A DNA stretch of 64,000 nucleotides from an uncultured Pelagibacteraceae bacterium (lineage in GTDB: Bacteria > Pseudomonadota > Alphaproteobacteria > Pelagibacterales > Pelagibacteraceae), in assembly GCA_902576765.1 (NCBI GenBank), contig CACGWH010000001.1, positions 39,395 through 103,394 on the forward strand, read 5' to 3'. The position numbers were made by a program, and so were the translations under genes. Numbering within the stretch: the stretch's first letter is position 1; each line of letters begins with the position of its first letter. The notes below the pieces were generated by a model that saw only the letters and a program-made list of their open reading frames with translations, did not search any database and was not told where the DNA came from. Shown here piece by piece: positions 43,694-50,763 of the stretch.

Positions 43694-45100
43694 CTAATTT
43701 TTAAAAAGAAATTTTTTTAAAAGTAGAAGGATTGTTAATAACTCTATTCTACCAATAATCATAAATAAAATAAGACAATATTTTATAAAATAATGCAAAC
43801 TATTAAAGTCAAAATCTTCTAAACCATATAAAGAAGAATTCACAGTATTCATTAATGTTAAAATAGATAATTTAAATGATTTTTCAAAATCGATGCCACT
43901 AAAACTTAATAAAGAAGATAAAATAAAAAGTGATAAAATGAATATAATTATAGTTAAAAAATATTTATTTATTTCAGCAAAATCAAATTTAATATTAGTA
44001 AACATTAATTTATTCATAAAAACATTTTTTGGTCTACTAAATGATAAAATTTGATTAATTGAATATTTGAAAAGAGAATAAATCTTAACAAATCTTAAAC
44101 CCGAGCTTGTAGAAAAAAAAGAGCCTCCTATAATAACTAAAATCAATAATAAAAAGTCTAATCTTGGCTGATTTTCATTAACAGAAAAACCAATATTAGA
44201 CATGCTACTTGAAATAGATAAAAGGTTATCTGAAAATTCATTATTAAAACTGAAAAAAAGAAAAAATATTGTAACGATAAACAAGAAATAAATAATCAAA
44301 TGCAAATCTTCATAGAAAAAATTGATATTTCTTTTTTTAAAAAAAACTAAATTGTAACTAAAAAAAATACTAAAAAAAGAAGTTAACATGAGTAATGATG
44401 TAATAATTACTTGTGAATTTTCTTTAAGTATAATCGATAAATCATTTACAGGTAAAAAACCTCCAGAGGATATAAGGCTAAATGCTAAATTTAATGAGTC
44501 GAATGTTCTTATGGAGAAAATATTCAAAATTATGAATATTATTAATGTTAAAACTGAATATAGTAAAAAGATTTTAATAGCTTGTTTAAAAATTTCTGAA
44601 CTATCAAAGGATATAAAATTCGTTAAAGTTTTCTTAAAATTCTCATCATAAATATCAATTAAAAAAATTATTGAAAATAAAAAATAAAGACCTCCTATCC
44701 ATTGGGTTGATGATCTCCATAAAATCAAGCTTTGATCAATATGTTTTATGTTATCAAATATTGTAAATCCAGTTGATGTAAAACCTGATATAGCTTCAAA
44801 AAAAGAATTTAATAAAGTTAAATTATAAATACTAAAATAAAAAGGGATTGACAGAACTAATGGTACAAAAATATATCCAACAAAAATTGTAAAAATCTTA
44901 TTGAAAATAGTTAATCTTTTTTGTTCAAATTTTAAATTGTAAAATAAAATTGATATTACTAATGAACAAAAAAAACTTAAATAATAAGTATCTAAATTCA
45001 AATATAAATTTAGATAGTAGGAATAAATTATATTAAAAAAAGATAAGATCGATACTAATCCAAAAAAAAAACTTAAATATCTAGTTTCTATTCCAAACAT
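43694..45100 (-). CDS. trkH: Trk-type potassium transporter membrane subunit
   Basis: NSFFEAISGFTSTGFTIF, LILWRSSTQWIGGLYFLF, IIGGSFFSTSSGLRFVKIY; adjacent trkA. Confidence 0.92.
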   Translation of the reverse strand: MFGIETRYLSFFFGLVSILSFFNIIYSYYLNLYLNLDTYYLSFFCSLVISILFYNLKFEQKRLTIFNKIFTIFVGYIFVPLVLSIPFYFSIYNLTLLNSFFEAISGFTSTGFTIFDNIKHIDQSLILWRSSTQWIGGLYFLFSIIFLIDIYDENFKKTLTNFISFDSSEIFKQAIKIFLLYSVLTLIIFIILNIFSIRTFDSLNLAFSLISSGGFLPVNDLSIILKENSQVIITSLLMLTSFFSIFFSYNLVFFKKRNINFFYEDLHLIIYFLFIVTIFFLFFSFNNEFSDNLLSISSSMSNIGFSVNENQPRLDFLLLILVIIGGSFFSTSSGLRFVKIYSLFKYSINQILSFSRPKNVFMNKLMFTNIKFDFAEINKYFLTIIIFILSLFILSSLLSFSGIDFEKSFKLSILTLMNTVNSSLYGLEDFDFNSLHYFIKYCLILFMIIGRIELLTILLLLKKFLFKN

Positions 45101-45104
45101 TCAA

Positions 45105-46496
45105 TTATACTGAACTTAATCTAAAAATATTTTCAACTAAAGGTATTGAATCTTTTTTAACAATAAAAACTACTCTATCATCTTTTTTGAATATAAAATT
45201 TGATCTTGGGATAATAATTTTTTTATCTCTTAAAACAGCACCTATTCTTGACTCTTCAGGAAGATTTGAATTTTTAATTTCTTTGTTTATTAATTCTGAT
45301 GTTTCAATTATTTCAGCTTCTATAACTTCATATTCACCATTAGATATTGTATAAGCGTTCTCAATCGTTCCCTTGTGAATATGTTTTAATATACTTGAGA
45401 CAGTTGTCATTCTTGGGTCAATTAGATCATCTATTTTTAAAGATGACTGAAGTAATGAATAATTTGGTTTGTTAGTTAATGCCATAGTTCTTTTATCTTC
45501 GATATTTTTTTTATCTTTAGCAAACTTTTCAATTAGAACGCTCACCATCAAATTGTCCTCGTCATCATTGGTTAATGCTAAAACAGTTTCAGCTTCCTCT
45601 AAGTTTGCTTCGGTTAAAACTTCCTCATCTAAACCGTCACCATTAATTACTATCGCATCATTAAGTTCACTTGCTAAATATTCGGCACGCTGTTTATCTT
45701 TTTCAACTATTTTTACTCTCACTGTTTCCAAAGTATCTTCGATATTTTTTGCTAGGTTAAATCCAATATTTCCACCACCAATAATTAATATTTTTTTTGA
45801 TATTTTTTCTGAATGACTAAATGCCTCTAAAGTTTCTGACATTTGTGAAGAATTTATTATTACATAAACTTTATCTTCTTTTTTAACCGAGTCTGTTTTT
45901 TTGGGGATAAAAAACTTGTCAGATCTATTTATACCTATGATATTAGCTTCAAGTTTTGGGTATTTTTTTGCTAATTCATTAAATTTGATTCCAATCGATT
46001 TACAATCGTTTTTTATCAAAATTTCTAATAAACGAATTTTATTGTCAGCAAATGGAACGCTATCAAGTGCACCTGGAGCTTCTAATTTTCTTTGAATTGA
46101 TTTAGCAATTTCAATTTCAGGAGAAATTATTACATCAATAGGTAAGTTTTCTTTATTATAAACTCTAGTGAATTTTGGATTTAAATAATCTTGAGATCTT
46201 ATTCTAGCTATTTTTTTTGGTATTTTGAATATTGAAAAAGCGATTTGACATATCAGCATGTTTATCTCATCATTTCTAGTGACAGCAATTATCATATCTG
46301 TTTCAGAAGCATTGGCTTTTTCAAGAATTGAGGGATAAGTTGCTTTTCCAACGATCGCTTTAACATCTAAGCTGTCATCTATTTTTTGAATATCCTCGCT
46401 TGATTGGTCAATAACAGTAATGGAGTGGCCTTGTTCACTCAGTAATTTAGCTATAGTAAATCCTACTCTTCCAGCGCCACAAATAATTATATTCAT
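45105..46496 (-). CDS. trkA: Trk potassium uptake regulatory protein TrkA
   Basis: Two Rossmann/RCK units: MNIIICGAGRVGFTIAKLLSEQGHSITVID and KKILIIGGGNIGFNLAKNIE. Confidence 0.95.
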   Translation of the reverse strand: MNIIICGAGRVGFTIAKLLSEQGHSITVIDQSSEDIQKIDDSLDVKAIVGKATYPSILEKANASETDMIIAVTRNDEINMLICQIAFSIFKIPKKIARIRSQDYLNPKFTRVYNKENLPIDVIISPEIEIAKSIQRKLEAPGALDSVPFADNKIRLLEILIKNDCKSIGIKFNELAKKYPKLEANIIGINRSDKFFIPKKTDSVKKEDKVYVIINSSQMSETLEAFSHSEKISKKILIIGGGNIGFNLAKNIEDTLETVRVKIVEKDKQRAEYLASELNDAIVINGDGLDEEVLTEANLEEAETVLALTNDDEDNLMVSVLIEKFAKDKKNIEDKRTMALTNKPNYSLLQSSLKIDDLIDPRMTTVSSILKHIHKGTIENAYTISNGEYEVIEAEIIETSELINKEIKNSNLPEESRIGAVLRDKKIIIPRSNFIFKKDDRVVFIVKKDSIPLVENIFRLSSV

Positions 46497-46497
46497 T

Positions 46498-47853
46498 TTA
46501 ATTAAATTCTTTTATTCCTAAACCCTTTAATTTTCTGTGAAGAGCGCTTCTTTCCATTCCAACAAAGTTAGCTGTTTTAGATATATTTCCATTAAATTTC
46601 TTCAATTGAATAGTTAAATACTCTTTTTCAAATTTTTCTCTAGCCTCTTTTAAAGGCACAGAAAGGCTATTTTCTTTTATCTTTTCATTAAATGTGTCAT
46701 TTTTAAGAGACTCTTTTACAATATTTGAAATTTTTTCTTTCGTTTCAGGTTGTAATATTGCAATTCTTTCAATTAAATTTCTCAGTTCTCTTACATTTCC
46801 CTTCCAATTATGATTTAAAATATAACTGTCATTTTCATCAATTTGTAATTGTTTGATATTATAATTATCTGAGATTTTTTTTGAAAAATAATCTATCAAT
46901 AAAGGAATATCTGAAACTCTATCGTTTAACGATTGAATATTTATTTCAAAAACATTTAAACGATGATAAAGATCTTCTCTGAAATTACCTATCTTAATTT
47001 CATCCTTTAAATCTTTACTTGATGAGCAAATCAATCTAACATCCACGTTAACATCATTATTTCCATTAAGCCTTTTAAATTTTTGATCAGTCAAAACTCT
47101 CAAAATCTTAGATTGAATTTCTAATGGAATCTCAGAAACCTGATCAATTAATAATGTACCTTTGTTTGCTTTTTCCAAAGCACCATAAGAAATTGATCCA
47201 TTTTCTTTTTCTTCTCCAAATAACTCTAATTCATATTTATTTGTATCTAATAATGCTCCATTTAAGATAATAAATGGCTCTGAAGATCTATTTGAATTTT
47301 TATGAATTTTTCTAGCAATTAATTCTTTACCTGATCCAGAAGGACCATTAATTAAAACTCTACTTTCAGTTAATGAAATTTTTTTTATTTGATCTCTTAT
47401 AGTTGAAATATTTTTGCTATTTCCAACTAACTCATAGGATGAAAACAATTTGTTTTCATAATCTTTATTTTGAGTTTTCAAATTTAAATTTTCAACTGCT
47501 CTTTTTATAAAATTTAACAATCGATTTTGATCAAAAGGCTTCTCAACAAATTCAAATGCACCATGTTTCAATGAATTGACAGCCATCTCTATGTTTGCAT
47601 GTCCCGTAATAATAATTACAGGAACGTCTTTGTTTTTAGATTTAATATGAGATAATAATTCTATTCCATCATTATCACCTTTATCAAGTTTTACATCTAA
47701 TATTGCAATATCAGGAACTTTTTTATCAATTTCCGTTAATGCTTGATTATAATTTGCAGCTAATCTGGTTTTATAACCAGCGTCTAATATTAATTCATTT
47801 AGGATATTTCTAATATCCGAGTTGTCATCAACTATGAGTATTTCTATTGCCAT
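46498..47853 (-). CDS. ntrX: NtrX-type response regulator with AAA+ domain and Fis-type HTH
   Basis: Receiver MAIEILIVDDNSDIRNIL, Walker A GPSGSGKE, C-terminal HTH NISKTANFVGMERSALHRKLKGLGI; adjacent ntrY. Confidence 0.94.
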   Translation of the reverse strand: MAIEILIVDDNSDIRNILNELILDAGYKTRLAANYNQALTEIDKKVPDIAILDVKLDKGDNDGIELLSHIKSKNKDVPVIIITGHANIEMAVNSLKHGAFEFVEKPFDQNRLLNFIKRAVENLNLKTQNKDYENKLFSSYELVGNSKNISTIRDQIKKISLTESRVLINGPSGSGKELIARKIHKNSNRSSEPFIILNGALLDTNKYELELFGEEKENGSISYGALEKANKGTLLIDQVSEIPLEIQSKILRVLTDQKFKRLNGNNDVNVDVRLICSSSKDLKDEIKIGNFREDLYHRLNVFEINIQSLNDRVSDIPLLIDYFSKKISDNYNIKQLQIDENDSYILNHNWKGNVRELRNLIERIAILQPETKEKISNIVKESLKNDTFNEKIKENSLSVPLKEAREKFEKEYLTIQLKKFNGNISKTANFVGMERSALHRKLKGLGIKEFN

Positions 47854-49630
47854 CTATTTTAAAAGTAATTTCTATTTTTGCACCTTCAGAAATTGAAATA
47901 AAATTAATTTCTCCGTTATGATCATTTATAATTTTACTTACTATTGATAAACCTAAACCAGTACCGTTTTTTTTTGTAGTATAATAAGGATTTAGTATTT
48001 CTTTAATGTTATTTGTTTTTTTATCAAAGCCTAAACCATTATCAATCAATATAAACTTAATATGATCATTATTATCTAAAATTTCAATTGCTATTTTTTT
48101 CTCAAAATTTGGGTCTTTTTCAGTTTTTTGCTCAATACTTTCAATAGAATTCTTGATCAAATTAAAAAATACTCTTCCCATTTGCTCTTTATCACAATTA
48201 AATAAAATTTTTTCTAAATTTTTTGAAAAGGTAATAATTATTGATTTATCAATTTCGGAAACTAATTTTATATTCTCCTCTAAAATTTTGATTAAATCAT
48301 TATTTTTAAAAATTGGTTTTGGCATTCTTGCAAAATCAGAAAATTCGTTAACTAAATTTTCAATTTGTTTTATTTGATTATTTATGATTTTAAGATTTTC
48401 CTTAAAATTAATTTGATCTTGCTCATCTATTTTATCAGAATATCTATCTTTAATTCTATCTATGGTTAATTGAATAGGAGTTAATGGGTTTTTAATTTCG
48501 TGTGCAAGTTTTCTTGCCAAATTTCCCCAAGCTTCATGTCTTTCAGTTATAATTAATTTCTCTTGTTGATTTTTCAACCTCTTAATCATCAAATTAAAAT
48601 TTTTATTTAATACTTCCATATCTTTATCAGTTTTAATTTCAGGTACTTTGATATCTAAGTCACCCTGACCGATTGCTGTTGAAGCTAATATCAAATTATT
48701 TATGGACCTAAAAAACCTTGAAGAAAATCTTATAGCGATAGTTATTGATACAAATAATAATAAAGAAACTATTATAATGTAGATTATAGCAAAGGAAATT
48801 TTTATTCCTGTGCTTCTTTCCTCAACGTTATAATAAAAGCTTATAGCCTCTTGAGACTCGTTTAGATAATTTGAAATATCTTTATCTAAATATTTTACAA
48901 CATATAAAAATCTATTTTCAAAATTTTGCAATCTCATAATTGCAGCAGAAATATTAGCTGGAGCGTTAATTATCTTTAATGGACGATCATCTTCTAATAC
49001 TAGATTTAATGCTCGATCTATAGGTGGCTTATAATTCTCTTTATTTTCTGAAGAATAAAATAAAACTTTATCTTTATCGATTATGTGTATTTCATCTACA
49101 TTTCTAATTAATTTTTGCGTTCTTAAAAATCGAAGATATTCGTTTGAATTTTCATTAAGGAATTTTGCACTTTTATTAGTATCAAACGCTATCAAGATTA
49201 TATCAGCTTCAATCTTATTTCTTACTTCTTGAACGTAGCTTTTTGCTAATTCGTAAGAATTATTAACAACTGTTGTAACTTTTTTGTCAAAATATTTTTC
49301 TAAAGCAAAAGTAAATAAAAATAATGAAAAAATAGAAATTAAAATCGATGGTATTAGCGTAAATAAAGAAAAATAAGTTATATATCTTTTGTTAGAAGTT
49401 AATCCGTCTTTATCAATATCAATTTTGATAGATTTTTTAATTTCATTGAAAATAAATACAAATAATAAAAAAAGTAAAAATATATTTAAAATTAATAAAT
49501 ACTGTAAATTATCTTGGTTAAGTTCTATAAAGCCTCTATCGATAAATGTTAAAAATGTTAAAAAACCTATAAATAGTGTGATACTAGATAGAATTATGAT
49601 AAATATATTTTTTTTCAAAAACTCAACCAT
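47828..49630 (-). CDS. ntrY: NtrY-type sensor histidine kinase
   Basis: TM regions, HAMP, H-box EAWGNLARKLAHEIKNPLTPIQLTIDRIK, GTGLGLSIVSKII. Confidence 0.94.
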   Translation of the reverse strand: MVEFLKKNIFIIILSSITLFIGFLTFLTFIDRGFIELNQDNLQYLLILNIFLLFLLFVFIFNEIKKSIKIDIDKDGLTSNKRYITYFSLFTLIPSILISIFSLFLFTFALEKYFDKKVTTVVNNSYELAKSYVQEVRNKIEADIILIAFDTNKSAKFLNENSNEYLRFLRTQKLIRNVDEIHIIDKDKVLFYSSENKENYKPPIDRALNLVLEDDRPLKIINAPANISAAIMRLQNFENRFLYVVKYLDKDISNYLNESQEAISFYYNVEERSTGIKISFAIIYIIIVSLLLFVSITIAIRFSSRFFRSINNLILASTAIGQGDLDIKVPEIKTDKDMEVLNKNFNLMIKRLKNQQEKLIITERHEAWGNLARKLAHEIKNPLTPIQLTIDRIKDRYSDKIDEQDQINFKENLKIINNQIKQIENLVNEFSDFARMPKPIFKNNDLIKILEENIKLVSEIDKSIIITFSKNLEKILFNCDKEQMGRVFFNLIKNSIESIEQKTEKDPNFEKKIAIEILDNNDHIKFILIDNGLGFDKKTNNIKEILNPYYTTKKNGTGLGLSIVSKIINDHNGEINFISISEGAKIEITFKIDGNRNTHS

Positions 49631-49656: not shown

Positions 49657-50763
49657 ATGAACAACTACTTTGTAATATTAGCGGCAGGTAAAAGTAAGAG
49701 ATTTCATAAAAATTTGGACAAACAATTCTATATTTATAAAAATAAAGAGATTATCGAACATTCAATAGAAAAATCATTAAATTCAAAGCTTTTTAAGAAA
49801 ATAATAGTTGTCACAAATAATGCTATTCATTTTAAAAATAAAATATATTCCAAGTCTATTAAAATTATTAAAGGAGGAAAAGAACGATCGGACTCTACAT
49901 TAAATGCATTGAAATTTATAAAAAAATATAAACCAAAAAATGTCTTTATACATGATGCTGCTAGACCAAATTTTTCAATAAGATTACTTAAAAAAATAAC
50001 AAATAGTTTAAAAAAAAATAAAGCTGTTGTACCTATAATTTCTTCAAAAGATTCAATAAAATACAAAATTAAAAATCGAGTATTTAACATTAAAAGAAAT
50101 GATTCATTTTTAACTCAAACACCACAAGCGTTTGCATTTAAAGAATTATACAATTTAGCAATAAATCAAAACAATCAAGTGAGTGATGAGGCATCCCTTT
50201 TTATAAATAATGATTATAAAATAAAATTTATACCAGGTGAAAATCAAAATAATAAAATTACTTTTTTAGATGATATTAATGAACCAAAAACTTTTTTTGG
50301 CATAGGCTTTGATATTCATAAATTAGTTAAAAATAGAAGACTTTATTTAGGTGGATCAAGAATACCTTTTCATTCTGGACTTAAAGGCCATTCAGATGGA
50401 GATGTAATTTTGCATTCAATAATTGATGCAATTTTAGGTGCTACACAAAAAAAAGATATTGGTAGTCTTTTTCCTAATACAAAAAAATTTAAGAATATTA
50501 AATCTGTAAAAATGTTAAAACCCATCTTAATTAATTTAGATAAGGCAAATTTTATTATAAATAATCTTGATATTAATTTAATTTGCGAGCAGCCTAAAGT
50601 TTCAAAATATAGAAATAAGATAGTTAATTCTATTTCAAAAATTATGAATTTAAATAATAACCAAATTAATTTAAAAGGTAAAACAGTTGAAAAATTAGGA
50701 TTAATAGGTAAAGAGAAAGCCATAGCTTGTGAAGTTATAATTTCAATCACAAAGTATGATTAA
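49657..50763 (+). CDS. ispDF: bifunctional MEP cytidylyltransferase / MECDP synthase
   Basis: IspD half (ILAAGKSKRF, HDAARPNFS, TQTPQAF) fused to IspF half (GFDIHKLVKNRRLYLGG, LKGHSDGDVILHSIIDAILGA). Confidence 0.96.
   Translation: MNNYFVILAAGKSKRFHKNLDKQFYIYKNKEIIEHSIEKSLNSKLFKKIIVVTNNAIHFKNKIYSKSIKIIKGGKERSDSTLNALKFIKKYKPKNVFIHDAARPNFSIRLLKKITNSLKKNKAVVPIISSKDSIKYKIKNRVFNIKRNDSFLTQTPQAFAFKELYNLAINQNNQVSDEASLFINNDYKIKFIPGENQNNKITFLDDINEPKTFFGIGFDIHKLVKNRRLYLGGSRIPFHSGLKGHSDGDVILHSIIDAILGATQKKDIGSLFPNTKKFKNIKSVKMLKPILINLDKANFIINNLDINLICEQPKVSKYRNKIVNSISKIMNLNNNQINLKGKTVEKLGLIGKEKAIACEVIISITKYD

Follow-up and report, generated by a model that had tools for sequence, protein, structure and literature searches.

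A natural glutamine at the Walker B glutamate site of NtrX, a regulator without GAFTGA, in a sub-clade of Pelagibacter

Described NtrX and related regulators

The Walker B glutamate is the residue by which AAA+ proteins burn ATP. The protein described here is the NtrX of an uncultured Pelagibacteraceae bacterium, encoded in a stretch of 64,000 nucleotides that was analysed as a whole and is called the window below. The closest solved structure belongs to its full-length orthologue, NtrX of Brucella abortus (5m7n, 5m7o, 5m7p; 42-43% identity), which shares its three domains, likewise has no GAFTGA and has been crystallised in ATP- and ADP-bound forms, but which, unlike the window protein, retains the Walker B Glu (DEVADMP). 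This Glu-bearing Brucella protein is reported not to oligomerise, and Fernandez et al. (2017) reportedly found that it binds ATP and shows no ATPase activity despite an intact DE pair, in a protein without GAFTGA.

The identical substitution at the equivalent position of the AAA+ domain of an enhancer-binding protein (bEBP) is that of Escherichia coli PspF E108Q (4qnm, 4qnr, 4qos), although this is an engineered form of a GAFTGA-bearing sigma54 activator, whereas the window NtrX is natural and has no GAFTGA. PspF E108Q has less than 1% ATPase activity and an approximately 30-fold higher affinity for ATP, and is a constitutive hexamer that forms without nucleotide, in which the E108-N64 switch pair stays engaged (PMC4132715). 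GAFTGA is also deleted in the NtrC proteins of Rhodobacter capsulatus and Caulobacter, which belong to a different paralogue from NtrX and act at sigma70-type promoters (PMC10274813). The R. capsulatus protein requires ATP binding and not hydrolysis (cited in PMC10274813). In vivo, however, the Caulobacter protein depends on both its Walker A Lys and its Walker B Asp (PMC10274813), so that loss of GAFTGA alone does not abolish the need for the ATPase site. VpsR of Vibrio cholerae, matched by fold, is another GAFTGA-less bEBP acting at sigma70 promoters, but it is distant, binds c-di-GMP and is reported to be ATP-independent. The literature searched contained no ATP-binding or ATPase data on any SAR11 NtrX, and no earlier report of a Glu-to-Gln change in NtrX.

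The ntrX locus of the window

The window protein, a response regulator of the NtrC family without GAFTGA, is orthologous to alphaproteobacterial NtrX. A profile search gives the order receiver, sigma54-activator-type AAA+ domain with lid, and Fis-type HTH; this order, the adjacent NtrY and the absence of GAFTGA are those of NtrX. The NCBIfam NtrX equivalog is the top model (541.7 bits, against 333 for the second-best), below its cut-off of 600 bits, which makes the protein an outlying member. Codons 237-239 read GAT CAG GTT (D-Q-V), which confirms the D-Q for D-E in Walker B of the preliminary description, and the Walker A and arginine-finger regions that it had called intact are so in the alignment (Table 1). 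The deletion of GAFTGA and the SSS of sensor I had escaped that description. The protein thus departs from a canonical sigma54-dependent bEBP in having no GAFTGA, Asp-Gln rather than Asp-Glu, and no RpoN found in its genome. The AlphaFold model has a mean pLDDT of 86, with most AAA+ blocks above 85. Its top six PDB matches are Brucella NtrX, including the complexes with ATP (5m7n) and ADP (5m7p), and other matches include the PspF E108Q mutant (4qnm) and a Walker B mutant of NtrC1 (3m0e).

Table 1. Position of ntrX, its functional sites and the neighbouring genes in the window
Feature	Position	Strand	Basis or remark
ntrX, response regulator (REC-AAA+-Fis HTH), 451 aa	46498..47853	-	domain profiles and NtrX model
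Receiver phospho-acceptor Asp53	47695..47697	-	Asp in 284/284 sequences covering the site
Walker A GPSGSGKE, residues 170-177, intact	47323..47346	-	
Switch Asn198, glutamate-switch partner of the catalytic Glu, retained	47260..47262	-	aligned to PspF N64
Loop 1, shortened, ELFGEEKENGSISYG, residues 210-224, GAFTGA deleted	47182..47226	-	alignment
Walker B LLIDQ, residues 234-238, Asp237 retained	47140..47154	-	
Gln238, codon CAG, at the catalytic Walker B Glu site	47140..47142	-	
Sensor I SSS, residues 277-279, in place of A-T-N/H	47017..47025	-	alignment
Arginine finger 1, Arg292	46978..46980	-	
Arginine finger 2, Arg298	46960..46962	-	
Sensor II Arg355 (GNVREL)	46789..46791	-	
Fis-type HTH, residues 405-443, includes GNISKTANFVGMERSALHRKLK	46525..46641	-	PF02954
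ntrY, cognate sensor kinase, 26-base overlap with ntrX	47828..49630	-	PF19312 (NtrY_N), HAMP, HisKA, HATPase
trkA, next downstream of ntrX	45105..46496	-	TrkA_N and TrkA_C
Divergent trkH-like gene, beside a normal trkA	43694..45100	-	PF02386, 22.8 bits, under the 27-bit cut-off
Fused IspD-IspF gene, divergent from ntrY, 26 bases between	49657-50763	+	

The neighbouring NtrY has 600 aa, with no PAS domain detected in a profile search and only about 15 residues between HAMP and HisKA. Brucella NtrY has been reported to bind heme, a property reportedly assigned to its PAS domain. As no such domain was detected in the window NtrY, heme-based redox sensing by this kinase is unlikely.

The Walker B column in NtrX and its relatives

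The NtrX alignment covers 286 loci, drawn from searches of the family, order and class together with 80 named Pelagibacteraceae records, a few of the loci repeating the same genome. Across these the Walker B Glu column holds Glu in 152, Gln in 103, Asn in 25, His in four and Asp in two. Gln is restricted to a supported sub-clade of Pelagibacter, the genus of the window (102 Gln and two His of 104 sampled; the two His sequences group with the Gln clade), whereas the NtrX sampled from the rest of the genus, which share 68-76% identity with that of the window, carry Glu. It is therefore not clade-wide in SAR11, a point that had been proposed for checking: most SAR11 genera retain Glu, as do all 20 sequences read from a second SAR11 family (f132), and Asn is found in the same-family genera g5, g7, g9 and g12. 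Nor does the catalytic Glu lie elsewhere, since Gln238 aligns with the Glu of Brucella NtrX and of 68/68 GAFTGA-bearing alphaproteobacterial bEBPs; misalignment is thereby excluded. A sequencing or frame error is also ruled out by the presence of Gln in 102/104 of the clade with synonymous codon variation; single-cell genomes, MAGs and closed genomes are all represented among these sequences.

Outside SAR11, 7/87 NtrX have lost the Glu (His in L093 and L259; Asn in L245, L261 and L285; Asp in L260 and L267), and six more keep it and have lost the Walker B Asp to N, K, E or R (L253, L264, L268, L274, L276, L281). L267 has lost both residues, and Walker A features are missing from two distant members, L259 (GSGQE) and L285 (KFSDKE). 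All non-SAR11 NtrX with a lost Glu or Asp retain the HTH signature GMERSALHRKL or a near form. A tree of 142 sequences, computed without columns 196-245 and hence without the trait columns, requires a minimum of 10 switches between Glu and another residue; several lone tips are weakly placed on long branches. On this tree the Gln-and-His clade has a support of 99, and the SAR11 Asn sequences form two groups that represent one event or two. In genus g9 (L072-L074, L076-L079, L092), 8/25 of the Asn-bearing sequences have the Asn/Glu switch pair swapped to Asp198/Asn238; Asp198 and Glu238 never occur together.

No GAFTGA was found in any of the 286 NtrX, and loop 1 is shortened or rebuilt throughout. 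Loop 1 is almost wholly deleted in L282, L284 and L286 (e.g. FEMALNSMLAQATGGTLFLDEVADL), where Walker B is intact. The control set consisted of 70 other alphaproteobacterial PF00158 proteins (the 30 best-scoring and 40 picked lower in the list), which score well against the Pfam model so that the set leans canonical; GAFTGA is present in 68/70 and the Walker B Asp-Glu in 70/70. All 68 GAFTGA-bearing controls carry the full set of Walker A Lys, switch Asn, the Walker B Asp-Glu pair, both arginine fingers and the sensor II Arg, hence the Glu column is variable in NtrX and not generally. A broken DE pair occurs in 13/87 non-SAR11 NtrX vs 0/68 of these controls (Fisher p = 0.0006, with kinship ignored).

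No RpoN was found in the genome that contains the window, which is 65% complete, and none of 197 SAR11 (order) genomes has it above the Pfam cut-off, vs 147/192 genomes across the class. Three sub-threshold matches in the order lie within frames of 843-874 aa and are probably not RpoN. According to a SAR11 study, sigma70 and sigma32 are the sole sigma factors of the group (PMC13198564), and in 58 SAR11 genomes NtrX is the only bEBP, with 0 or 1 copy each. Given this absence of RpoN, NtrX presumably acts at sigma70-type promoters. RpoN loss as the sole cause of Glu loss is excluded, because RpoN is present in 4/7 of the non-SAR11 losses (L093, L245, L260, L267) and many RpoN-less SAR11 keep Glu.

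No variation occurs within the Gln clade at the Walker A Gly and Lys residues, at Asn198, Asp237, Arg292, Arg298 or Arg355, or at the receiver Asp53. Sensor I reads SSS in nearly the whole clade vs A-T-N/H in the controls; the sensor I Asn is missing from most NtrX, so this departure is family-wide and not peculiar to the clade. Mean pN/pS within the clade amounts to 0.13 in the AAA+ core, which is thus under purifying selection, compared with 0.11 in the receiver and 0.04 in the HTH, with synonymous sites near saturation. Codon 238 is CAA in 87, CAG in 15 and CAT in two, a variation that is almost only synonymous. By these measures of sequence variation, both the AAA+ domain and the Gln are maintained in the clade.

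ATP as fuel or as a held ligand

The explanation that we consider probable is that NtrX, without GAFTGA, acts without sigma54, and that its AAA+ domain holds ATP while hydrolysis is dispensable, leaving the catalytic Glu free to change for that reason. NtrX would have ceased sigma54 remodelling before SAR11 arose, and ATP would then have become a held ligand that sets the conformation of the AAA+ domain and its subunit contacts, with no need for turnover. NtrY would phosphorylate Asp53 and the HTH would bind DNA. Glu would have changed once to Gln in the Pelagibacter sub-clade and later to His in a few members; further SAR11 genera would have acquired Asn, and Alphaproteobacteria outside SAR11 Asn, His or Asp. 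ATP binding is expected of the window NtrX from its conserved pocket residues and from the ATP-bound structures of an orthologue, and absence of hydrolysis is predicted from PspF E108Q; by this analogy the Gln protein would bind ATP tightly, with turnover well under normal and the Asn198-Gln238 pair engaged. The suggestion of the preliminary description, nucleotide binding without normal hydrolysis, is thus favoured by the kept ATP-binding residues and by the low ATPase and raised ATP affinity of the PspF mutant, but it is incomplete, as the Gln is no isolated flaw of a sigma54 activator. Brucella NtrX, with its intact DE, is reported to be ATPase-negative, so that Gln more likely followed from a need already gone than brought about the loss of hydrolysis; Gln itself may not be what removed hydrolysis, and is best read as one independent loss among several of a residue that could be dispensed with.

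It could also be that Glu-bearing NtrX are slow ATPase timers and that the Gln, Asn and His lineages gained a permanently ATP-locked state, with constitutive oligomers and tight ATP sensing. The constitutive hexamer and raised ATP affinity of PspF E108Q would fit this, as would purifying selection that holds codon 238 as Gln, as if Gln itself mattered, and the retention of Glu in most lineages. We nevertheless regard it as unlikely: the Glu-bearing Brucella protein is reported to have neither ATPase activity nor oligomers, and the variety of substitutes (Q, N, H, D), together with the Walker B Asp losses, fits a lost need better. It also speaks against dispensable hydrolysis that most NtrX keep Glu and Asp, which thus still serve some function in the majority of lineages, perhaps in slow turnover or in structure.

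Decay of the AAA+ domain, with nucleotide binding gone and the receiver and HTH sufficing, might be read from the changed catalytic and sensor I residues and from the two distant NtrX that lost Walker A features. It is very improbable in view of the invariant Walker A Lys, Asn198, Asp237, arginine fingers and sensor II of the Gln clade, and of a model that is confident across the AAA+ domain, with nucleotide-bound NtrX among its best matches. Degradation is also unsupported by pN/pS, the value for the core being near that of the receiver. Still less credible is that a different acid sustains hydrolysis, such as an Asp replacing the switch Asn in the SAR11 genus where Walker B has Asn. The swap in genus g9, with Asp198 never beside Glu238, would fit this, but it may do no more than preserve a hydrogen bond, and Asn198 is kept in the window protein and the Gln clade, which leaves no acid there.

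The Gln NtrX is a variant that occurs in nature and has evolved repeatedly, in a family of unusual GAFTGA-less regulators that is already known. The repeated loss of Glu with the ATP pocket retained suggests, under the reading of dispensable hydrolysis, that ATP is a bound structural part and not a fuel. More tentatively, and on balance somewhat doubtfully, NtrX might represent a recurrent natural shift of an AAA+ protein from an ATP-burning machine to an ATP-held switch reading occupancy alone, with about 10 independent Glu replacements that include the Asp198/Asn238 swap and the Pelagibacter Gln trap. NtrX is the sole enhancer-binding-type regulator of SAR11, which are among the most abundant cells of the ocean and have very few regulators. 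If it is true that NtrX works by ATP binding alone, the annotation 'sigma54-dependent regulator' is wrong for it, and the variants found in nature, with Glu, Gln, Asn, His or the swapped pair, provide a ready series on the purpose of an AAA+ domain after sigma54 remodelling has been lost.
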